Assembly (NCBI RefSeq): GCF_964204645.1
Contig: NC_134026.1
Coordinates: 1,488,001-1,552,000 of the forward strand
From: Tubulanus polymorphus
Taxonomy: Eukaryota; Nemertea; Palaeonemertea; Tubulaniformes; Tubulanidae
Direction of reading: 5' to 3'
Length of the DNA stretch: 64,000 bases
Both the position numbers and the translations under genes were made by a program. A model generated the notes under the pieces. That model did no database searches and was not told the origin of the DNA. It saw only the letters and a program-made list of their open reading frames with translations. Positions 9,196 through 45,728 of this stretch are shown piece by piece; within the stretch, counting starts at the first letter, position 1; the number at the start of each line of letters is the position of its first letter.

Positions 9196-10185
9196 TTATC
9201 TCCTCGACTCAGCGTGACCGGCAACACTCCGGACCCGTATCGACATCATGTCTAGTCTCGTGCTAGCGTGTCAAGTTCAGTTCAAGCTACGTCCAGGGCC
9301 AATATTCGGCATCAGGCAACGGAATGAGAGAGAACGAGTTAACTTGAATGGATGAGAAGTTTTGACCAAACTCCTCGACAGCATTTTAATCATATATTGC
9401 CAGTGGTTTCCACTTATGACATTTATGACGAAGAAGGATCTGGTGTTCGACATGGAGGGACATCATCTGCAGTGTTTTCGTGTTGTCGATATAATTTCTG
9501 CGGACAGCAATCGATGGCTACCCGGTAATGCCTTGATTCGATGGCATTCACGGACGAAAGAGCCGCCATCTCTACTTTTCTCAGTTCGCCTCTTAGATAC
9601 AGGTATCGGATTGGTAGGCCTACTTTGTAATGTAGTAAAATCATTTCAGATCAACTCCTTCAGTCCATTCGCCCGGTCCAACCACGACCGCGGTTACAAA
9701 CGGCACTTCAATGGTTAAGACCGGGTCTCCCGATATCGACTACATTGATACTTAATCATCATGCCATTAAGCTATCTTTCTGTTTTCCGTTATCCCCGGG
9801 GTTCATTCCCGGTCGGTCAGGGGAAGTCAGATGGCGATAAATCAAGCAAAGCGCCGCGGTTTACTGATAAATGTCCATGCGATGGGCCAAAACAGACAGT
9901 CGTAACTCACGCCACCGGTATATTTATTTTCAAACGATACTTATTTGGATATATCGGGGTTTTCACTAGTGGTGTTTAACTGGCCGCATTTTTGTCTTAT
10001 CAGACAAGCGATAAAGACAAGTCCGAGCAAATTTGTAGCTTGTCACTGATTTACGGTATGTCGATTAGAACGATGCGATATGTATAGTCGCTGTCCATGC
10101 ATTTGGTAAAAAGAATATTCTAAATCCGGGAATTATCATGAGACTGAGTTCAAGATATGGATGATAACGTACATATATAGCAGAA
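9196..10185. other. Intergenic, locally GC-richer
   Basis: This stretch is less AT-rich than its surroundings and has several CpG-containing hexamers between about 9220 and 9880. It probably contains promoter sequence for the MAPK15 side (minus) and the MS4A-like gene (plus). Two overlapping open frames near 9362-9718 (plus) and 9423-9644 (minus) have no domain or splice support. A sequence reading ATGGCGGC on the minus strand near 9570 resembles a YY1 site. Confidence 0.4.
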
Positions 10186-10770
10186 ATGTTTAAAATGACG
10201 GATTTGTGTAGACGAAGTTTGCAGTTTTATTGCGGATATATATTCGTTGTATTGTCTATCGTGAACTTAGGATTCTGTATTCCGCTAGGGCTGAGTTCCC
10301 CTGTGCATACGGCTGGAATGATCGTGTCTGGTTGTCTGACAACCGTTCTTACCGCCATCGCTGGAATTAACATGATAATATTCATTACGATTCATAGAAA
10401 TACGATCCGAATGAAAACGTCTGTGATGGTGATGTCCATAATTTCCGCTACAGGAGTTATACCTACTTTAGCATATACGTGTGCCTTGATGACTTTAGTA
10501 TCGGACGAAACCTCGCTAAACGCCGAAATTGATAACACTGAATCGGTTCCTTTAGATATCGGTGTGAACATTGCGCATATAACGGTACTTCTCACAATAT
10601 TTATTACCTCTCTCGCCGAGGCTATTGTATTTTGCAGAAACTTTTGTGGTTTTGATTCTATAAACTCTGTTCAGCCGCTACAAGATCAGCGCGATTCTCG
10701 ACGAAATCGAGCTCAACTGGGCCCGTACACAATTACACAGATGATGAGTTTGGAAGCTGAAGTGCGGTAG
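10186..10770 (+). CDS. MS4A/CD20-like four-span membrane protein, single exon
   Basis: A 194-aa intronless frame with four hydrophobic segments, at about residues 14-36, 43-68, 77-102 and 124-148. Short polar loops and a charged C-terminal tail of about 40 residues containing Arg-rich and Gln-rich stretches complete it. The layout (short N terminus, four spans, cytoplasmic tail) is that of MS4A-type and related tetraspan proteins. Sequence identity to a named member is not evident to me, so the family call rests mostly on topology and on the clearer MS4A-like gene 8 kb away. MFKMTD is the first start; the second Met is three residues later. An AATAAA lies at 10902-10907, about 130 nt after the stop, which fits a short 3' UTR. 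Confidence 0.72.
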   Translation: MFKMTDLCRRSLQFYCGYIFVVLSIVNLGFCIPLGLSSPVHTAGMIVSGCLTTVLTAIAGINMIIFITIHRNTIRMKTSVMVMSIISATGVIPTLAYTCALMTLVSDETSLNAEIDNTESVPLDIGVNIAHITVLLTIFITSLAEAIVFCRNFCGFDSINSVQPLQDQRDSRRNRAQLGPYTITQMMSLEAEVR

Positions 10771-11599: not shown

Positions 11600-14500
11600 A
11601 TGTCGTCATCTGTTCGAATCGACACCGAATTCGCAATCTCGCCCGCGTGCAACATCCACCGCGATGACATATCAGCTATCAGCCGATCCGATGTCGCGTT
11701 AGAAATGGATAGACACATGCGGAAACGGGGTATTAAGTCCGTTATTGGCGAGTATGCAAATGAAACCAATTTTCACGGCTTTAGATATATAATTCATGCG
11801 GCTTCACCTGTTGCCAGGTAAGTTTTTGAAAATATATTTTGAAAAAATGGTTTTTGGAATTCATACCAAATTTAACCTATCGTAATCATTTAACTCTGTC
11901 AAATATAGTCATCACAACGATGAAAGCAATTAGATTGGCCAAATCAGTATGGATTTTGTCGAGTTTATCGTTTTTGCAAAGCAGAATCTGATCATAAACA
12001 GGTTAATAAAACATGAATGCGTACCTATAAGTCTGCCGTCTGTATTAGGCGGATCAAAACAGATTTCCATGAGCCATGACGGTAAAAACTTAGATTAGAC
12101 CGAGAGAACGAATCTCAAATTACTCTCAATAATTCAGGTATCGCATGTTTTTTTTTCTGGTAGTTGTTGTCATTTACGTATTTGCGACACAGACGGCATC
12201 TGATCCTTCCATATAGAATCGTGAATAGTGTATATAAAATACGAAGTAATGGAAATGATACCATCCGTTTCCTGAAACTATCATTTTATAGCTTTTTTTT
12301 CTGAAGCGGTTATCCATTGCATCTATTGTATATCTCGTTTATTTTAGAGCCCGACATATGTCACAGTATCTAGCTTCCTAACTCAAGTTCAAGTTATTGT
12401 CTACTATTTAACGCTCCGCTGAGCTAAATTAAATTGACATCTGTTGAGACAAGCTCTAGCCAGAGTTATCCTGTACTGAGTTTCTCATCGTATTTCTGAT
12501 GTCGACTGTAATTTGGGAGCTTCGAAAACGCGGCACATACGTACAAATTTCAAACAAAGGTGTTAGTTTCCCCTCTCTTTTAGCTTTTGGGATATTTACA
12601 TAAGAGTTCAAAAATTCAATCGAGAAATATTCTAATCTATTTTGACTCTAAGAAATTATATAGGTTTCGACGTGGAAGTAAGAAACTACAATATGAGCAA
12701 TATCAACCCGGTGAATGTTAACCCTCGCAGAAGAAGCAACAGTTACTGACTTTCATTCCAGTCACAGTCGATGGTGCAAATCGCCAATAAGACGAACACT
12801 TACTTATATAAATCTGTATCGTTACTGATGAGAATAGCCATTACCGAGAGCAATTAACATCCCACGTGCTACATAGATTTCATTGTATAATGGTATCTTT
12901 CCATGTAGACAGTCATGTTTCCCTTTTGTCGATCGTTGCTGCAGGGAGATGGGAGTACCTCCCTGGTTGCTCGAACGGGATCCTACCCGGGGTACTGTGT
13001 CGTAGAAAACGATTTTCACCCACGGAATAGAAATTCGCGTTGCAAAACGGTAATTAAGATGGCGATGAAAAGGATATGAATAACCCTCCAAATGACCAAA
13101 AATCATCACGATGCTTTAAATAATGAAGATAGGGCGATATATTCGATTTCGACATGCAGAAGAAGGTTTTCTATTTTCATTGCTGGAATAGGAAATCCTG
13201 TACCATCGTCGCCTAATGAAGAATACGATAGTTTGGTTTATCTTTTGAGTCTAGGGTTCCTAGGGATCAATAACCCCATTTACAATATATTAATTCCGTC
13301 AACACATCGTATATATGCAAATGAAGCAGTTCAGTTCTCAATCATCTGTACTTTCGACCCACTACTGCTAGTTCACTAAAGACTTGAATAAATGCTCCGC
13401 AATGCTTGTAAATACTGGACATCCGTCTTGAATGTGATATAAAATCGACATCAGTTATATCGAATGAGACAACGGAATTCTAACAAGTTATGATTTCATA
13501 TTGATGGCTTGATGAGAATATCCAACTGAAATCACTGCTATAGCTTATCGATCTAGTCAAATATATATTTGAAATATAATATTGATTAAATGAATTCCAA
13601 AAATTCGGCCAGAATCAGAAGGAAGGCGACGAGAAATGCAAAATCAATATTATTTTCTCTAAAGGATAATTCGTTCAGTTTAGACGAGATGACGTGAATG
13701 GTTTTGATGAAGTCGCACAATGGCCGCGATTTCAACCAATTCCCTAGAGCGCAAATTAATTGGTTTTACAAAAAAAATGTAAATATATTTCGAACGACGA
13801 GGAGTATGAAGGAGGAAGTCTTTCGTGTATTGTTGTTCAATCGTATCCTTGTCGACATGGGAAATGTTGTTTTTGGCATCGTATTCCCTGCGATGAAACA
13901 ATCATCATTTAGTAGCTTATAATGCCGTGTAGGAAGCTCGTGTACAATAAGAAACGTTCTGCAAATAGCATATTTGCAATGAATAATAGTTCTTCTCAGA
14001 AACATCGGTGACGATTCCTATTTTGTTTGCAGGTTGATTTGGCTGTTGTTATTTCTGTCAGCTATCGCTGCGTTTTTGTACCAAGTACAGGACAGAGTAA
14101 GAATGTATCTGAGTTGGCCTGTCAACGTCAATATCGATATCGCCAGTAATTTTTCGCTCATCTTCCCCGCCGTGACAATCTGCAACTCTAATAACTTCAG
14201 GTGAGTTTGTCATCTCATTAATCACTGGCTGTGTCGTATTCAACGAGCGATTGGCATTCTCGCCACCAATACAACGTTTTTTCTATTCGGTTAAAAATTA
14301 TGTAACCATAAATAAATAATGTCTCATTGAACGCATTCGCAATCGCTAAAATTGCTGTAATATAAATCGTGTACACAATAGATATTTTCAAATTTTCAAG
14401 TTCAATAACTGCATCTAACAGCTTGGTACTTATTCAGTGAATTTCAATAGCCGGTATACAGCCCTGTCTCTCCTCACACGTGCTACATCACTGAACGATA

Positions 14501-14660
14501 ATCGTGGTCACGACACACAATCAAATAAAGTCGCTTAAAATACACTAAATTACCCAGTAACGCTCAATCGTTACAGCTACATTTAATAAGTCAATGTACT
14601 GAAGATTATTCACTTAAAAAAGCTCAAGCATCTATGAGAATTTCTGCTGAGTGAACATTG

Positions 14661-14691
<31 letters not shown>

Positions 14692-17600
14692 CATGATATA
14701 GAGCTTTTTACAACAGGCGATTTCTAGATCAAAATCGAATAATTCGACAGATATTCACGCATGAAATGGTGATATATTCTCTGAATTCAGTTATAAATGG
14801 TCGCGTGTATATAAAAACGCTTATCACTGTATCATTGGATGATGGGGTCACTATCACACTGGACCCCATCAGCGCAGAATCTTAATGTCCATCATTAGTG
14901 TCATGGAAGTTTTTTGTATCGATAATCAAGTCAAATCAAATTTGTCGGTCATCACAGCTCCACTCGTCGGCGCACAGATTGGGGTACTCTAATGTTTACC
15001 GTACGCCATATGAATAAATATTAGGGAAATGTTTCTGCCTTCCAGACATTATATACTGATAGACATATTTTCTTCTAGTTAGAGACGTTATCTTCATTTC
15101 TGTTACCCCGGAATCGGCGGACACAACAAAGGAATGATGATTAATAAATCGGTCTATAAACGATAAAAAATAATCACCAAGATCCAGTATTTCTTGAACA
15201 ATTCCTCGGAAACATTTCTGGACATAGACTAATCCGTGTTGAAGGAACATCCATATTTGATAAAGTATAAACACTCTGCTTAGCAGTAATCTAAGCTAGA
15301 TGAAGCTTAGATCGATAGAAACGAAGCAGAATTCTGTGACTACGTATAATATATGATAGCAAACAGGATTGTCATTGTATTATCACCGAGCGCCCTGTTC
15401 ATCTGGATCCAGTTCCACAGTCGTGAGTTAGAGTTAACGTGGAGTTAAAATTAGTTCATTTTCAGTATACAATGAGTTACTCTGAGTCAGATGATAAGTG
15501 ACAACTGAGGAACTGGGTCCTGTTGAATTTTATATATTTTTGATGCCGATTTTGCCGATAATACCATGGGAATTGATGTGCACCGCATCATCAATATTTG
15601 CGCTTCATTATAACAATGAATTACAATATTGTGGATTTCGGGGTCGATTCTGTACTTGATTTTTTCATGACTCTTATTTCCTATTCAATAAATTTTCATG
15701 GTTTTTTAATAATGAGTTTCGAGTGGATGCGAAATCCTTGTCATCAAATTGGGCTAGCCTGTTTAGACTGGTTGCCAGTCAATTCAATTCAATTGTCAAT
15801 ATATTGAAGTTCGAAATAGCTTCATTCATCCTTGAAATTATTATCATATCATTCATTGTCGATGGTATCAAGCAATTTGTGTCTTCTTGTTAACTATAGA
15901 TTGTCAGAAGCGATGAAGTTAGAAACGTATCAATACCTAACCGACGTCTTCCACCAAAAAGCGAATTGGGAAAAAGCGATGGAGAAACTGAATGAAATGA
16001 ATTATACAGATCTGCAGATAAAACTGGCTCATCGAAAAGAACATATGATATTGGGGTAATTATTTACACTCATTCCTATCGGCTTATTTTGAGCATCATT
16101 TTTCGGTCACTCGTCGAGTCGTTAATGAATATACGTAAAACTGTTTATTGAACTCTTGATTGAAAAACTTTCGTGAAAAATCGTCAGTGGAGTGGAATGC
16201 TTTTTATCCCACGTGAGAATAAAACATGTGTCTGTGATCGAGTGAAGACACTGAGTCTATGGCTGATCTTTTATTCATCTCGTTGATTATCTATCCGCAG
16301 TTGTACGTGGAAATCGAGTCAGTGTAGTTCGGCTAATTTTACCCCGATTCTCACAGATTACGGCGTGTGTTATACTTTTAACACGAATAAAGACAACATT
16401 TTGACAGTAGAAAATACAGGTACGTCGAGACGAAAACCTAACTCAGCTTAATCCATTCCATTCATTAAACACGTTCTTGATAAGTAATTCAAGAAAGTTG
16501 TTTTCTCAATTCGCAGTACGACCTTGTGAAAGGATATATACTCTAACACAGGCCGAGCGGTGTGCCTCATTTACAGCTTTTTTAGGAAATCAGTAATAGA
16601 TATATACCCTGTAATCGGACAAACCAATACAAAAAAAACGATAGCCTGTTATCAATTTGTTAGTTCGGAATAATGATATCATTTTTTTTCCTAATGTAAT
16701 CCGTAGGCCCACACATATTAATCAGAGAATATCGTTTTGGTATTTTTAGTTGGCATCATCACTTAACGATAACCTAAACGTAATGCTGCCCTAATTACCC
16801 TTCATTTTATGTATATTTGAACTGGTTTTTCACGATAAATGTCAAATTATGCGCGTATAAATCATCTGCATCATATAATATAGGAGTAGTTATTTTTACA
16901 CATCATCTGAAGTTCATTAAACTACTGAAATTTGAATTTAGGTGCGGCTTTCGGATTGGAATTATTGTTGAATATGGAACGTTATGAATACATGACCGGC
17001 GCCCACGTTTCGACGGGCATTCGGATACTGATGCATAACCATAACGAAAAACCTCGAATGGCGGACCTCGGCATATCAATTCCAGCTTCGATGAATGCTA
17101 TGGTAGCGATGGAATTGACTGAGGTAAAATGTATATACTGCTCTTTGTCGGATCCGATTGCAGCACGACCGTTTTTAACGAAAGTGGTATTTGAGCCGGC
17201 AACGAATGACATGCAAAGTTGCACTTCATTCTATTGATTATAGAAGCTGTCGTTTCCATTGAACGCTTCATTTTTCAAGTCAATTCCGCGTGCTGTGATA
17301 AAACATGAAATGATAACATATGCTCGTTGATATTACCACTTTCCGGCCTAGGAAAAATATTTGAAAAATATGACATGTTTATTCATATTACAAGGTTGTG
17401 TTTCGGTTGATACAGAGGTTATTGTCTCCAAAACGCTTACGAAACCGTATACCAAATCTTGGTTAAAACTGCCCGACAATGATCACAAATGACTCCCTAT
17501 AAAATCCTGGGGCCAGTTGTTCAAGTTGGCGAGAGAGGTAACCGGTGTATTAATACATGGTAAAAATGAAACAAGATTGAATGAAGCACATATGGCCTAC

Positions 17601-20600
17601 AACATAAAAATATTTTTATTCGTTATTAATATATTAATTATATTATTGTTACAGAAAGAAAAAAAGACAAAAAGTCAAAAAGCAAAAATTTATTTATATA
17701 GATAGATTGACCTTATCCACATTGACATGAGGATAAGTTATCTAAAGATAATTTTATCAATTATCATCATTACTTATCATCGTAATTCATCATTACCATT
17801 ATCGTGAAAGGATATAATAGGTTAGGTTATAATAGGTTATGATATTTTTATAATCAGTTACATTTCCACAGATAAAGTGTTCGTGTTATCATTAATTTCA
17901 TCAGTTGTGATGCCCGGACAGTTTGACCGTACATGCATTCATGATTTAAAAAGAGGAACTCATCAAAAGCATTTCTTACCATTAAAGTTTGATCCTGAAT
18001 AAAGATTCATCGATTCAGCAAAGAACGTTAGGTTAACAGATGGAATTAATGGGTTTCACAAACTACTGATCCACTTCCATTTAATGTAAAAAAACTGCAT
18101 TTGCGTTGAAGTCTATTTACACTCTGACAAACTGATCGTAAAAAAGTGACATTCCTCGATCTCTTGGAGCTGTATATGAATTAGATTTTAAAAGATTAGA
18201 ATGAGTTCTGTGTGGGATGTTTAGAACTGTCCTCTTGAGGTCTTGAATATTATCTATACATAATACGCGGATAAAGGGATTTGAATTCGAAATCGACAGA
18301 ATGAGCTTTAAAAAGAGATGAAGTCAATAATACAGTTTCCAATGGAAGCTTTAAGCAATTGTGTCCTACGATATTTTTTGAAGGTGAATGAAAGTACTAC
18401 AACTAGCCGAGTCATCTAAGTTTTTCCAGTTCGTCAGATCCTTTCGTTATTATCACCGTAAAATGGTACCGTATACGTCACAGTAGGGTCCTTCTAAGAC
18501 CTACCGTAACAGCAACTGCAGCAGAAAGAAGCGATTATGATCTCCAGGATGAAGGTTACGAAGTGCAGGACGGACACTACGACTGGAAGAGCGTAGGCTG
18601 CTCCTACACCTACTGTCCATATTACGATATTAGCAGCTGCCGACGCTGTACACGACGCAGCGAAAGACCAGACGCAGCCAATAATAGCCAGAACCATGCA
18701 GGCGATTCTCAAACCATCACTCTTCTTTTTTCCGCACATAACTGCTAAAACGCCTGAAACAATTGGAATGATCGCGCCCCAGATACCTGCATGGAAGAAA
18801 TTCCATTGAAGAGCGGCGATGCTTGCGATATTTAGTACTAGAGCGAGTACTTCGAGTACAAGCACTGCTATGCCCAACCCAAGAATGGCACCAGCGCGAA
18901 GTTTTCCTTCTTGTCTCACATAAGCGGGTTGTTGGACTATTACCACGTGAGGTTGTGGCTGTCCATAGTTAGCCGGTGGTGGCTGTCCATAGTTAGCCGG
19001 TGGTAGCTGTCCATAGTTAGCCGGTGGTGGCTGTCCATATCCCCCTTTTACGTCTGCCATGTCACGCGTAAACCTATTCAAAAATATATCATCGAAGGAT
19101 TAACGCCAGTTCTTGAGGTGCAAATAAAAATATCACTATTGCAAAGAATTTGCCTTTCTGCGCAGGGGCGCGGTGGCATTTTTCGAGTACAAAAGGTACA
19201 GATTTACAAATTAGAAGGTTGAAATCTTAGTATTGGTGGCTGACTTAATCAATTTGAGATTGTGTGGCCCGAATCAGCCCCCGTGTATAATTCATTTACC
19301 TTACTAACGTTGTATGATATTCGCTGTTCGTTGGATAACCGTCAAACACTTCTGACGATCTCGGTTGTATATGAGAACACTTTTAGATCGAAAGGATTTA
19401 TACTCTAAGGAAGATAAAGCATATTTCTGGTACTTTACAATGAATGTTTTGATTCTACTGTCCTACTGACATCTTAACTCCGAATAGAACTGGTTTAGCA
19501 CTATGGTTACCAAATGGTTTCCAAAAACGTTGCGTATTGTGTAGATATTCTCCGGTTAAATTGTAGAACACTATTGCCTGGCTCAGTGCATATATAACCT
19601 TATCGATCAACGACATTTCATGACACCAGTTTTAATCGAAAGAGTTTGGTTCATTCTCCTATAGGAATATGTTCTTTCTCAGGGCGGATCGCACTTAAAA
19701 ATGATTTCAATATTTTTCCGCGCACGATATCGGTTTAACTCCGATAAATGGGATAGTTTCAGGAATGTCGTGAGCGCCGTTTGGCCATTATATACACCTG
19801 ACCGAATCAGACATCAATTTCAAAAAGTGGTAACATTGCATCTGTGCACTATTTCAACGGGATTTCCGCCGGTTAACCTTAGTCCATTATATTTGAGCAA
19901 CTGGTCACTGATTGTTAATCTTCTTCAAATAATGAATATTTCCTTATCCCATCGCGTTTATCCCAGTTCTCCAAATCTGTCTCTTTTTTAACTGATGATT
20001 GTTTGAAATTTTCAGTTAAACGATTTAGCCGCGCCTCACGGAAACTGTACGAAGTCAGACTTCCGGTCACGTGAGGCGTGTATTGTCGACTGTCGAGTTG
20101 ATAATCTGGCGCATATTTGTCACTGTCGACCGATGTATGCCACTTACAAAGCGCATATTCCCCTCTGCAACGCAACATCTCATCACATTTGTGTCAAAAA
20201 CGTTTTAGGTAAGTGATAAGTGGAAAGTGAAAATCAAATAGTGCAGGAATATCCTCTCACAGATAACACCTGAGGCATTTGGCGATAACCGTTCGATAAA
20301 ACTATCTCTCCCTCTCTCTCTCTCTTTTGCAGGGAGCCACGAAGGTTATGAGGCGTGTAATGATAAATGTAAAGTGCCCTGTAAACAGTTGATGTATTCG
20401 GCTTCGCTTTCGTATACGACCACGTCTGATTTTATGGCCCGAGCTATGGCCAAAAAGTACGCCAGCGATTTCGATCTTCTGAACAGATCTCGCATCGCGA
20501 CGCTTAATCTTCACCACGTCGACGATACGTTTCTGGAAGAAGACAACGCCGTGATGTCAGCCTTCTTGAATAAATATCATAATTTCTATAAGCAATTGGT

Positions 20601-23600
20601 GTGGCTCTACGAATCCGCCCATAAAAATGTCTCGCATATCAAAGCCATGCGAGACGCGTTTGAGGGAGCTGAATTGTGTCTACAGGAAAAAAAGGTATTA
20701 TCGGTGCAGTTGTTTGATATATATCATGCATTCATTACATTGAACAGACAGGTTACGTCTGGAACTAACAGACGTTCCGGATAAGATCAAATATTTATTT
20801 CCAGTACGTGATTGAACTGTTTTCGTTGTCGCTTTTTAGAGTCTTTACGAAGAGACTTTGAAGTTGCACTTGGTTCCAGGATTGGTCGAGTTAACGGTGG
20901 AGCGGCTGCGATACGAAATATCCGACTTACAGAACAGACGGTTGCCGCGATTCAGCGACCTCGTGCAACAGAACGCAACTCACAACAACATATCTACATT
21001 CGTACAGCAACAGTTCGAAGAAGAACTGTGGTGGCTGGACCATAAAATGAGAATCATATTATCAGAATTGGAACTGACTGAAAGTACGTATTCGAACGCT
21101 TTAAACACGATTAAGTCCGAGTATGAGAATGCCGACTCCGCTCTACCGATGTCGATTCTGCGGCCGTACGAGGACAGGTTATTGAACTCATATTCGACAT
21201 TCGTCAACGATTCAAGTCGAACTATAACTGACGTAGAACATTTCCTTGATTACATCGCGCGATTCAGGCGTTCTCCGAACGGAGTAAATCTGATCAAATT
21301 ATACAACGAAACAGCAACATTGAACAGAGTTTTAACCGAATTCACCGAGGCCACGGAAGGCCTGGAATCGATCTCTAACGTAATAAAAGAATGTTTTCGC
21401 CATGAAATTTCCAGCATTCGGTCGACCGAACAAAACATAATCGGTTCGGCACAATTCCACGCGAGATTGCTGCATATCTACGCTAGCGAGTTCGTCGAAT
21501 CGCAGCCTCACTTGTTGGAGTTCGGCGATTTCATCGACCGCATAAAAAATCTAACCGGTGGATTTCAGATACAATACCTCGAGGATAAGTTACAAAACTC
21601 CGATCTGTGGAACCACACAATATCTCACACTAAGAACATGATGGTCACGTTAGATAAAATGAAAGCCGAAGCGAAATCGACGATTCTACACTCCGAAGAA
21701 GTATTGCTCAGTTTGGAAACGTCTGCCTCCGAGTTCAACGGTTCGAACGGTTGCGGCCAGTTTTCGACGATCATCGAGTTGTTGAGAACTTACAAGGACA
21801 GAATAAATAACCAACCGAATTATATCGATTCGGTTCAAAAAGACTATGAACAAATGCTAACAAGGCATACGAATCTAGACACCCATTTACAACAGTTGAA
21901 AGATTCGTACGCCATTAGTTATAAGTTCATAAAGTAAGTATAATGTATCCTTGAAGAACTACAAACTGTTTAACTTTCCATCCAACGCCTCATAAATTTT
22001 CATTTTCCTAATGAATAATGGGAGAAAAACCATCGACCAAGAATTCTGTTGGCAACAAGGATTTACCCTCTGGGCCACAACGTGTCTGCACGGAAAGGAG
22101 AACTGCTATCATAATTTCTTAAATGCATTTTCTCTTCCCATAGTTCTTTCGAGTACAATATCTTACCAGATAAAGAATAGAAAAATTAATTACTCCCACG
22201 AGAGATTTCCTCAATGCAACGTTATTCAAATATCTATCAAATATTTATAGTTATTCAAATATTTTACAACAAATGATGAAAAAAAAAGAAAATATTCTTA
22301 ATCTACATTTTCAGGAGGAATGTTCTCACTGTTCGTGTTTTCTATCAGAAGCTCAATTTTCAGCGAATCACAAAAGCCGAAGGGTATCAATGGTTTTCTT
22401 TGATATGTAAGTCATAAATTTGGGCTTATTGTTTGTTTTTCTATTTCGCCTTTACCTGACGCGTTATAGGATCATAATTCGACGCTACTCGCTCGATTAA
22501 CTCAGTAGCTAATAGTTATATTCAAACTCCTACCGGGACATGTCATTAATAGCATCGGAAATAGTTTCAGTTCGATGATAAACTACCATTTAGGGAGTTG
22601 AATAGTCCTACGTAGAGGTATTTACGGTCGTTGACATTTGGTCATAAAGATATATAGCTTAGTATATATAGTTATATTCGAAGAGCGGAAAGTGCTACGA
22701 CTGTTGGGTTATCATCGCATCCCAGTGGTGGTATTAAAGACAGGAATAATCCTGCGATAATATATGTATTAAGTCATGCCCAGCGCTTCGTCGACGGAGA
22801 GATGATAATTTCGTCGTGCGGGGTCGATGAAATTTGAATATAGCGTCAAATATTCATAAAACAAAAATTCTTCGTTCGCGTTTGGATTTTCATGAAAATG
22901 AAAGCTTTCGGTATACTGTCGTGCCCCAGGGGATCATACAGTTACCGACTTAATTGCCTTTTCCACTAGCATTTCTCCTAATAAAAAACCGCACTTAACC
23001 AGCCGTGTATGGAATACGTTACGAATTCTGGAAGTTGTTCTAACGTATAAAACAAATCAATTGATAATCATTTCCCATTGCCATTTGCTCGTCTGTAAAT
23101 TGTTTACCGGTTTCATTGCAACACGTCTTATTTTGGTTCACGCCTTTCAATGTATATGATATATGCAATGAACGGTGTGAACCAAATTATCAAAAGAAAT
23201 AATATACAGTAGACTTCGCTCAAGAAAGGATCTATTGGGACCATCAAAATGTTCCGGGTTCAATGTATTTGATATGTAGTATCACAAAAGATTTTTCAAA
23301 AGACATCCATGTTGAACGGTTCTGACTGACGTAATGAGAGGTGAACGGATTTCTATTATCTATACATGTATATGGCGAGTTGATCAGACTTGAGGGGCAT
23401 TTTCAATCGTGTGGCATTTTCACTCGTGGGGCATTTTCACTCGTGGGGCATTAACACTCGTGGGGCATTAACACTCGTGGGGCATTAAAACTCGTGGGGC
23501 ATTAAAACTCGTGGGGCATTAACACTCGTGGGGCATTTTCACTCGTGGGGCATTTTCACTCGTGGGGCATTAACACTCGTGTGTTAACGAACATCTGTAC

Positions 23601-23935
23601 TTCATTCTCTGGGATATCGGTATCATTTGACTTATCCACAGATTTGGTTCGTCCAAACACTGGTTAGAAAAATATCTATCCCAATACGATTTTCAGTATT
23701 TTTTTCTGTATTCTTTTCAGGTGATATAGGTGGTTCGTTCGGTCTGTATCTCGGTGCATCTTTGCTCACGTTAGCGGAACTGTTATATTTCATCGGAAAA
23801 CATATAAAACCGGGCAATTCTTCACAGGAAAAAGTGAAATCGTTCAGCATGAAACAACAACGAGCGAAAATGAACGGTAGCGACAAACAAAATGTGATCA
23901 CTCACAGCGATAAGATTGCCTGGGCGTCTGACTAG
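11600..23935 (+). CDS. DEG/ENaC cation channel subunit with a giant ectodomain insert
   Basis: Amiloride-type sodium channel subunit of the degenerin/ENaC/ASIC superfamily. Exons: 11600-11817, 14033-14200, 15900-16055, 16301-16419, 16942-17123, 20016-20208, 20333-20694, 20840-21933, 22315-22406, 23721-23935. Phases agree at all nine junctions, giving 932 aa. Landmarks in order: cytosolic HG motif (NFHGFRY, near residue 60), TM1 at 74-92, the palm/beta-ball segment with CYTFN near 210 and LNMERYEYM near 230, cysteine-rich thumb region with CNDKCKVPC at 354-362, final strand VRVFYQKLNF before TM2, then GLYLGAS (GAS at 873-875) in TM2 at 867-892 and a 40-aa tail. Usual members are 500-750 aa. 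The excess is about residues 398-831, predicted helical, with several N-glycosylation sequons. The ATG at 11600 is the first in frame; an earlier 5' exon is possible. Confidence 0.92.
14663..14692. repeat. (AT)n microsatellite
   Basis: About 13 AT dinucleotides in channel intron 2. Confidence 0.85.
18494..19060 (-). CDS. MS4A-like tetraspan with proline/tyrosine repeat N terminus, nested gene
   Basis: A 188-aa single coding exon lying in intron 5 of the channel gene on the opposite strand. The N terminus holds four tandem copies of an eight-residue unit ANYGQPPP, with variants ending LPP and PQP, followed by a hydrophilic linker. Four hydrophobic spans follow: about residues 60-82, 88-108 (with the MS4A-typical GIWGAIIPIVSG), 118-140 and 148-178. 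The protein ends in a Cys-rich FCCSCCYGRS, a likely palmitoylation cluster. This is the layout of MS4A proteins, which are plasma-membrane tetraspans. I start at the Met of MADVKGG because an acceptor (TTTTTGAATAG, near 19077) lies just upstream, so a 5' UTR exon probably precedes it. A start seven codons earlier is also open. Confidence 0.78.
   Translation of the reverse strand: MADVKGGYGQPPPANYGQLPPANYGQPPPANYGQPQPHVVIVQQPAYVRQEGKLRAGAILGLGIAVLVLEVLALVLNIASIAALQWNFFHAGIWGAIIPIVSGVLAVMCGKKKSDGLRIACMVLAIIGCVWSFAASCTASAAANIVIWTVGVGAAYALPVVVSVLHFVTFILEIIIASFCCSCCYGRS
23207..23265 (+). mobile_element. pogo/Tigger-like terminal repeat fragment
   Basis: Begins TA-CAGTAGACTTCGCT and contains TTGGGACCA and TCCGGGTTCA in the same order and spacing as the copy at 36187-36247 in ROCK. 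The CAGT...TTGGGACCA...CCGG pattern resembles pogo/Tigger element ends. The opposite terminus was not found, so it is a fragment or solo end. Confidence 0.45.
23397..23584. repeat. 17-bp minisatellite, about 11 copies
   Basis: Tandem units of the form ACTCGTGGGGCATTWWM, differing mainly in the last three bases (TTC, AAC or AAA). It lies in the last intron of the channel gene, ending about 135 bp before the TM2 exon. Confidence 0.92.
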
Positions 23936-24920: not shown

Positions 24921-27723
24921 ATGCCTTCCCCGAGTTCCTTGCGTGGAAAGTTGTTGTACATCGTGACTGATGTTGTTTGCTTCGTCATCGGTAAGTGTGG
25001 TTTGTGTCTATCTTGACCAGAGAAATAGATACCGTGAACAGAAGGCCGTGTTCACAGGGATGACTCTTCAAATAATTCATTCAGAAATGGACGGGAAAAC
25101 ATTTATGGCATATCATCTACAAACTTCACGAGAAAAAAAAGTGAAAGTGTATATTCGATTTTGTATCATCGTAGCAACATCGAAGACGATATAGCAATTC
25201 GTGTATTCTTGAAAATAACTGACATGGTACTTTCTCTATTTGAAGATACCGACGCGTAATCTAGCCCGCTATATATCTCACCGGGGTTTATACATATAAG
25301 TTCGGATATATTTCAAATACATATGAAGTTTTTAATCTAGATGATATAAGACTCTTATCTCGGCGGCCAATATTCGATATCTTTCATACGACGACGTTAC
25401 ATGAATATGAAAAATATCTATCATTGTATATTGCTTTTTCAGCGGCGTTACCGAATATTTTGATGAAAGAGTACATGCCACCTTATCATCGTGGGTTTTA
25501 CTGCGATGACGAATCGTTGAAACACCCTTACAAAGGATCGACAGTTCCTTGGACCCTGTGTATTTGCGTTGGGGTTCTCTTACCCGCTGTAGTGGTAAGC
25601 TCAAGCTGATTTGTCGTCGAATTTCTGTTCATTGAGCTTAACAGAGCATATTCTAAGAGGTGAAAATACCTTATTGCCTACAAAAGAAATAGGTGGAAAA
25701 TGTTTCAACTTTTCAAATTGATTCGTTATCTGTTAAGTTTATGGGTGATAAAAACCTACTAGGGCGCCACCTGCTCGAAACGTTGTCGTTAAAACGCTTT
25801 TATTAACTGAAATATTATATTCAGTTTATTATATAGTCCTGTTGTCTAATGCTGGCTATGCTCCAATTTTCTATGTTTGCCATTAAGCGATAAAAACTTG
25901 AATATTATACGGTATTATAATGACTATACATTTTCACGTTTATACGACGATTTCTGAACAGGTATTCAAAGCGATTTGAACCACCGTCTTGATTTCAAGT
26001 TGCATAGTAGGATATAAACCCGCTCCCCGTTTGATAGTTCAGCTTTGCGCAGTGGCGGTACCATAGTCAATGAGGTTTATCCGAGGCGTGGTTATTGCTA
26101 GTTGAAAACTATACCCAATACCCCGCACTGGCGACCGCAAGGTCGACTGTGCAATTTTTCAAAGCCTCTACGGAGGCTGCAATTAATAAATCTAAGATCA
26201 AAATGAAAAGTGAACGATATCTGGTATACTAGATAGCAGTTTCGCTTGACACTTGCATGTTCGAGTAAAATGATGAGCATTCTAGAGGTGTCCAATTCGG
26301 GAATCGGTCCTGAGAGTAATTACAAAATCTTTTGCCAACCGTTTTTGCAGATTTTCATCGTCGAGTTGTTTCACTACTTGGACGATCGTAAACGAAATCA
26401 GGGATCGTCAAAATATCAATTAGGATCGGTACCAGTAGCTAGTTTCCTGTGGAACTGGTACAAACATACCGGTGTGTTCGGCTTCGGTTTGGCTCTCAGT
26501 CAGACATTTAATGGCATCGGAAAGTACAGCATCGGTCGACTGAGGCCGCATTTCTTGACGGTTTGCGACCCCGATTACAGCCAACTAAACTGCACAGGAC
26601 TGAACAATATGCAACGCTACGTCATCGATGAGAACATATGTCGAGGCGATGCGGCAGCGATTAAAGAAGCGAGGTAAATTGGTTTCACTGTGGAACTGAA
26701 ATTAGATTTACCCCATCTGGACTTGATCTAATATGAAAAGGGTTACTCACTTTAAACTGTTTGTAAAGTGAATGGATTAAGATTGAAAGTAATTATTTCA
26801 CATTATAGGTTGTCTTTTCCGTCCGGACACGCGTCATTTTCTTGGTATTGTATGTTGTACCTTGCGGTGAGTTTGCGATGACAATTCGAGTTGTATATAT
26901 AATATATATCATAATGGTCCAGAATTTTTTCCACAATTAAGACACGTTTTGAAATGATGTTTTAGATCTATCTACAATGTCGCATGACTTGGAACGGGTC
27001 AAAGTTGGCCAAACACCTTCTTCAAGGTGTAGTTATATTGCTGGCATATTTCACTGCGTTATCTCGCATCTCTGACTACAAGCATCATCCGACTGACGTT
27101 CTTTCCGGCTCCGTACTCGGCATCTTATTCAGTCTCCTAACGGTAAGAGCGATGGTAATCTTATCCCTGTCGGCGCGCCTCAACAGTACCATCCATCACA
27201 ATTCGCTGTTCTTTATACCCAAATTGTGAACAGACGTTTGGGAACCGTCCTTGTCTTCAAATGATAAGTTATGACACAAAATCGATACTTAAGACACACG
27301 CAAAAAGGTCCCCGAACCCTGCAGCCAAAATTAGGATTCAAGGATTTCTGTAGGATTTACTGATCCCTGTGGTCTATCAGAGAACATTATATGAATTGCA
27401 TTCACTTTGTCATGTATCTCAATTGCTTTTATTACTCTCTCGTATACAAAATAGATATGTATATATTCATGGATGATTTTACATGCAAGGTTTGTATACA
27501 TCATTCCAACAGCTACGGCTTTAACCCGTAAGATATATATATATATGTTAACTAGAGCCAAGACCTTCGTATGTTTAAATGCGTATTTCAGGCTTTTTGC
27601 GTGTCGGAATTATTCGATAAGAACGACCAAGCGTCTCGCGCCGATGATACGGATATTCTCGTCGGAGGTATGGAAAACCCGCTACAGTCTGACGTACAAA
27701 TTCAGCTATCGAACAAAGAATGA
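24921..27723 (+). CDS. PLPP: Phospholipid phosphatase (PAP2/LPP family), six exons
   Basis: Integral-membrane lipid phosphate phosphohydrolase, related to vertebrate PLPP1-3 and fly wunen, which dephosphorylates lipids such as phosphatidate, LPA and S1P at the plasma membrane. Exons: 24921-24990, 25443-25594, 26351-26673, 26809-26866, 26966-27142, 27592-27723. All phases agree and the total is 303 aa, normal for the family. The three catalytic motifs are intact: C1 KYSIGRLRP at 132-140, C2 PSGH at 186-189, and C3 SRISDYKHHPTDV with SR at 234-235 and the nucleophilic-relay His at 241. RGFYCDDES in the first loop is also typical. An N-glycosylation sequon NCT lies at 154, in the luminal loop where the family is usually glycosylated. 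Six membrane spans are expected. Which vertebrate paralogue is closest cannot be told here. Confidence 0.95.

Positions 27724-32062: not shown

Positions 32063-45728
<13,666 letters not shown>

Follow-up and report, generated by a model that had tools for sequence, protein, structure and literature searches.

A DEG/ENaC channel gene of the nemertean Tubulanus polymorphus with a large, predicted helical insert at the knuckle, and its paralogues in the same genome

The 64,000-nucleotide stretch analysed here, hereafter the window, comes from the palaeonemertean Tubulanus polymorphus (assembly GCF_964204645.1, contig NC_134026.1, positions 1,488,001-1,552,000 of the forward strand) and contains a gene for a DEG/ENaC channel whose knuckle region is interrupted by an insert of 443 residues. 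Searches with the inserts of paralogues, followed by reading of the loci, identified at least 23 DEG/ENaC genes with an insert of about 440-500 residues at the knuckle in the 268-Mb genome to which the window belongs, and these genes very probably constitute an unusual, apparently undescribed clade of DEG/ENaC channels. Positions are those of the window unless another sequence is named; other sequences and loci of this genome are referred to by C and L numbers, respectively.

The channel gene, rebuilt from the raw sequence, occupies positions 11705-23935 of the + strand and has 10 coding exons encoding 897 amino acids (aa) with no internal stop. All nine introns are of the GT-AG type and in phase (phases 2,2,2,1,0,1,0,2,1), in agreement with a first-pass annotation of this DNA, which had described nine phase-keeping junctions in a genuine DEG/ENaC gene. 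Its 932-aa product is in the same reading frame but starts at an alternative ATG 35 codons upstream, within the same open exon 1. Family membership is firmly established: the product matches Pfam ASC (PF00858) in two stretches at 277.5 bits (curated cut-off 23.6; E = 3e-82), and the best matches among solved structures are ASIC2 (E = 6e-50) and ASIC1, each of which aligns at residues 13-354 and again at residues 781-856, as two blocks, and nowhere between them. The translated channel has the His-Gly motif (NFHGFRYI), the first transmembrane segment (TM1) and FPAVTICN in its N-terminal part, and the Cys-rich thumb (exons 6-7) and the GxS selectivity motif of the second transmembrane segment (TM2), DIGGSFGLYLGASLLT, in its C-terminal part. 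The features of the gene are as follows.

11705-11817, 14033-14200, 15900-16055, 16301-16419 and 16942-17123, + strand: channel exons 1-5
20016-20208, 20333-20694, 20840-21933, 22315-22406 and 23721-23935, + strand: channel exons 6-10
14033-14200, + strand: exon 2, with TM1 and the post-TM1 motif FPAVTICN
20016-20208, + strand: exon 6, Cys-rich palm and thumb
20333-20694, + strand: exon 7, with the last cysteines of the thumb, beta10, helix alpha6 of the knuckle (20425-20460) and the first 78 residues of the insert
20461-20694, + strand: first part of the insert, 78 codons, holding its best conserved motif, LHxVDxxxxxxD (alignments, profile test)
20695-20839, + strand: phase-0 intron that divides the insert; its donor is weak, and it was not seen in paralogues with a single long exon
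20840-21933, + strand: second part of the insert, a 1094-bp exon of 364 codons and 2 bases
21934-22314, + strand: ancestral phase-2 intron directly 3' of the insert (FIK/RNV, the slash marking the junction)
22315-22406, + strand: exon 9, with beta11, the beta11-beta12 linker (Leu-Asn) and beta12
23721-23935, + strand: exon 10, TM2 with DIGG and the GAS selectivity motif, and the C terminus

The large insert of the first-pass annotation (about residues 398-831) is real and extends over residues 355-797 of the 897-aa model, or about 390-832 in the 932-aa numbering. The alignment to ASIC2 is interrupted within SAKYLEKKF...NKSEKYISENIL, and the ASIC blocks end and resume at AKKF/NKSEQYIGEN. In ASIC1a, residues K384, K388, K392, K396 and E403 belong to the knuckle (PMC12658276), which is a pair of connected helices that come together on the extracellular side and form the upper vestibule (PMC6827283). 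Because the break point is bracketed by these residues, the alignment places the insert between the two helices of the knuckle, at the apex of the trimer, and not in the force path from thumb to pore where it had initially been located. The insert is extracellular by the topology of the DEG/ENaC family. The phase-2 intron that follows it is found at the same codon and in the same phase in insert-free paralogues (L006, FAR/NNF; L004, LR/ENF). The order of the motifs flanking the insert, the Leu-Asn beta11-beta12 linker and the DIGG/GAS TM2 are all shared with ASIC1 and ASIC2 (6L6P, 6AVE), but in these channels alpha6 and beta11 are about 10 residues apart, as compared with about 450 in the window channel, and the degenerin position holds Gly, where the window channel has Cys. 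The window channel thus lacks both the short knuckle and the degenerin-position Gly that mark the ASIC subfamily.

The main exon of the insert has the character of coding sequence. It is free of stops over all of its 1094 bp, as first reported, whereas none of 1000 block shuffles stayed open, and its G+C content by codon position (0.43, 0.32 and 0.55) is coding-like. It is highly improbable that the long exon is absent from the mature channel mRNA, being instead an unspliced intron or part of a neighbouring gene wrongly joined. Such an artefact would be in keeping with the weak donor at 20694 (score 0.32) and with an in-phase alternative at 20456 that scores slightly higher (0.8), is also weak and would give an insert-free product. 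Against it, the homologous reading frame continues over the 20694/20840 junction in an ungapped profile alignment, the inserts are under purifying selection (see below), and in paralogues the knuckle and the insert form one exon, so that skipping could not separate them. Computed removal of the 1094-bp exon, alone or together with exon 7, breaks the frame before TM2, which is lost. Exon skipping therefore cannot remove the insert cleanly, and an insert-free isoform produced in this way is excluded by exon phase.

The composition of the insert is that of a helical extracellular segment, largely as described in the first-pass annotation (helical, poor in Cys, at least five N-glycosylation sequons). 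It contains three Cys, no hydrophobic stretch able to span a membrane and nine sequons, where 4.8 are expected from shuffles. Its hydrophobic periodicity peaks at 100-105 degrees, as for an alpha-helix, with z up to 4.7; values of about 5-10 are obtained for most of the paralogues tested.

A search of the genome with the insert exon alone returned only its own locus, and the whole protein led to a gene on C8 that matches from the thumb into the insert (E = 2e-7). When the C8 locus and three loci on C11 were read, inserts of about 441-464 residues were found in the identical place. The window, C8, C10, C1 and C2 each contribute one carrier. C4 has two at 5.44 Mb and another at 8.83 Mb, and there are three on C11. 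The others are on C6, where three are dispersed and nine form a tandem cluster in C6:7.11-7.18 Mb. The insert had been thought to be without a known counterpart. This holds for the publications and domain libraries searched, none of which was found to describe it, but not for the genome itself. The split of the window insert at 20694/20840 is the exception, since most carriers have the knuckle helix and the insert together on one long exon. The window and C8 genes are interrupted by phase-0 introns, each at a different point, and L037-L040 are apparently split near the end.

Homology among the inserts was assessed with leave-one-out profile hidden Markov models (HMMs) searched against a database of 1000 sequences, with 970 shuffles plus reversed sequences as controls. 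E values were 1e-51 to 1e-69 for most groups, 1e-13 for the C11 group and 9e-6 for the window insert, which aligned end to end with a score of 20.7 bits, where the best shuffle reached 9.0 and the best reversed sequence 11.1. Complete inserts have about 441-472 residues, yet share only 11-15% identity with the window insert. As judged from these profiles, homology of the inserts appears strong for the majority and modest to weak for the window. An interpretation of the first 30 insert residues (RSRIATLNLHHVD) as a decayed second copy of beta11 was dropped, since this stretch corresponds to a conserved motif in the other inserts.

Three further characters speak for a single family. One is the phase-2 intron directly 3' of the insert, described above. 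The degenerin position, just before DIGG, is Cys in all 23 of the 23, including the C1 paralogue L044; its codon (T/GT) is split by a phase-1 intron and in the window comprises bases 22406 and 23721-23722. In insert-free genes that were read, the same position is Ala (L004) or Ser (L001 and L002). In a tree of the core sequence without the insert, which took in six insert-free genes and has several long branches, the carriers fall on one side of a branch with support of 83/82, below the starred level, and L044 and then the window gene branch first among them. The insert-free status of L001, L002, L004 and L006 was judged from contiguous frames or from the shortness of the gaps; L003 and L005 were seen in part. 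These observations are consistent with one origin for all carriers but do not prove it.

Several known systems bear on the possible function of the insert. The nearest precedent is the placozoan TadNaC, which has insertions between the knuckle helices, but these are loops predicted by modelling, and some 440 helical residues are not described there (PMC6827283). The spiralian FaNaC and WaNaC channels have their ligand pocket at the finger-knuckle corner, beside the position of the insert junction (PMC9234716, PMC11026163); in FaNaC1, helix alpha6 of the adjacent knuckle contributes to the FMRFamide pocket, and this corner is called important for gating in the family (PMC11026163). The window channel matches these channels more weakly than ASIC2 (E = 1e-29, compared with 6e-50), and a large knuckle insert is not described for them (PMC9234716, PMC11026163). 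In alpha-ENaC, the knuckle is extracellular and glycosylated with a proposed link to the matrix, and the N511 glycan is required for the response to shear; adding a knuckle glycan to delta-ENaC gives a higher, matrix-dependent shear response (PMC7958617). The alpha-ENaC case differs in that it involves one glycan site and no added domain (PMC7958617).

Because ligands and matrix are both reported to act at the knuckle and finger, we favour an extracellular helical recognition or tether module that acts through the knuckle-finger corner, by ligand or by force, and give this reading an even chance. In such a model, an all-helical, probably N-glycosylated domain of about 440 residues would lie between the knuckle helices, three to a trimer, and the three inserts would rise at the apex, over the upper vestibule, to form a helical crown or stalk. 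The crown could bind an extracellular partner (a ligand, the matrix or another cell), and binding would act on the knuckle-finger corner so as to alter opening of the pore. The tether, ligand-binding stalk or lever of the first-pass annotation are all possible forms of such a module.

The size of the residue at the degenerin position tunes channel opening, and the Cys shared by the carriers therefore suggests that the insert was accompanied by a change in gating. More tentatively, and short of an even chance, the carriers may represent a large spiralian DEG/ENaC clade in which a trimeric, glycosylated knuckle crown provides a new extracellular gating input, for force or ligand, coupled to the changed degenerin residue.

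The part of the proposal that invokes force can be considered separately. If the helical, glycosylated crown joined the channel to matrix or to neighbouring cells and passed their pull to the knuckle, the conserved length and helical periodicity of the inserts, the nine sequons of the window insert and the shear effects of the alpha-ENaC N511 and delta-ENaC knuckle glycans (PMC7958617) would all be accommodated. In many paralogues, however, sequons are no more numerous than expected, and Pfam searches recognised no matrix-binding domain. We regard a role purely as a force tether or lever as rather unlikely.

Selection on the inserts was estimated from pairs of paralogues. Between recent duplicates, the ratio of nonsynonymous to synonymous substitution rates (dN/dS) of the insert is 0.28-0.61 and always below 1, so these inserts are under purifying selection. 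The adjoining knuckle segment of 31 codons has values of about 0.06-0.20 in most scorable comparisons, and in most comparisons the inserts evolve faster than this segment while their length is kept. The C11 pairs have no such contrast, with 0.98 in the segment, which is short. The window insert has no close duplicate, and the dN/dS values, which come from paralogue pairs, are not direct evidence for the function of the window copy. Retention of length while sequence drifts suits a helical scaffold in which length matters and the surface is free to change.

The same pattern could arise if the insert were a fast-evolving ligand-binding module, each paralogue having its own agonist (a peptide, a secreted protein or a chemical cue) in the manner of a chemoreceptor family. 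The tandem arrangement of recent duplicates, with nine genes on C6 and three on C11, the excess of dN/dS in the insert over the knuckle segment and the use of knuckle alpha6 by the FaNaC peptide pocket (PMC11026163) would agree with this idea. Nevertheless, no positive selection was seen, the kept length and drifting sequence fit a scaffold equally well, and the comparison is tempered by the shortness of the 31-codon segment and by the C11 pairs. Ligand recognition of this kind is possible, if somewhat doubtful.

Searches for known domains turned up no Pfam or PDB relative beyond generic coiled coils, and since no source domain can be detected, the insert may have been either acquired or expanded. 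Pfam searches with single inserts and with insert alignments, including the HMM search of the insert proposed at first pass, gave only scattered helical and coiled-coil families with weak scores, and the insert as a single sequence matched no solved structure. As a profile it matched nothing among PDB entries but generic coiled coils, and the best of these, Nsp1 (9e-6), was rejected as compositional. Searches of bacterial genomes and viral contigs yielded no relatives, which is unsurprising given that the gene is from an animal. Literature searches found no published description of such a DEG/ENaC insert; unpublished predicted proteins that carry one may well exist in databases. A helical, coiled-coil-like composition with generic coiled-coil matches would also be expected if the insert mainly set the pairing of subunits in heterotrimers or kept other proteins at a distance and took no direct part in sensing, and the many co-clustered paralogues could need rules for pairing. 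No sequence feature points to a role in assembly, however, and moderate purifying selection is just as compatible with a role in sensing or binding. We consider this explanation unlikely.

Several observations weigh against the favoured reading of a recognition or tether module at the knuckle-finger corner. When its first 70 residues are removed, the window insert has an E value of 0.018 and scores lower than the best of the reversed controls, and the L044 insert has no detectable similarity to the insert profile in the leave-one-out HMM test. Given the weak similarity of the one and the undetectable similarity of the other, the view that all carriers have the same domain rests in part on position, on the shared Cys and on the tree. 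An AlphaFold2 model of the 1094-bp exon alone, from a single sequence, is all helix with a pLDDT (predicted local distance difference test score) of 45, a low confidence that makes it too poor for use. The fast evolution of the inserts could also mean a weakly constrained spacer, and the in-phase donor at 20456 could in principle yield an insert-free isoform.

How outside force and ligands are coupled to the DEG/ENaC pore is an old open question, and mechanosensitive tethers are poorly known. More than 20 paralogues with differing apical domains of about 440 residues, beside insert-free relatives, form a natural series for testing the role of the knuckle. They also indicate that there is room in the knuckle loop for a domain roughly equal in size to the remainder of the channel ectodomain.

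Other features were noted in and around the channel genes. Intron 5 of the window gene contains an intronless frame on the - strand (18494-19060; MADVKGGYGQPPPANYGQ...) of about 188 aa with about four hydrophobic segments and no Pfam match, and intron 9 contains a minisatellite (23394-23581) with 11 copies of a 17-bp unit. Just upstream of the gene, on the + strand, lies a frame of about 194 aa (10168-10770) with several hydrophobic segments and no Pfam match. Downstream, at 25265-26677 on the + strand, are exons of a PAP2-type lipid phosphatase, one of which matches Pfam PAP2 at 2.5e-5, slightly under the cut-off. A second minisatellite at 32279-33251 has 28.7 copies of a 34-bp unit and is open in several frames.

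Two of the paralogues also have frames within introns. Reverse-transcriptase-like frames in an intron of a C11 paralogue (L033:3250-4355) probably belong to a retroelement, and an intron of the C8 paralogue (L032) contains, on the same strand as the paralogue, a 395-aa frame resembling a seven-helix receptor (C8, 15202670-15201486, - strand). A search for COX1, from which the mitochondrial code could have been read, found none. The C6 sequence, which holds the large tandem cluster of carriers, also has a compact collinear Hox cluster at C6:5348972-5634747, whose genes we take to be Lox2, Lox4, an Antp-like gene, Lox5, Scr, Dfd, Hox3, Hox2 and Hox1, a set that identifies the species as spiralian.

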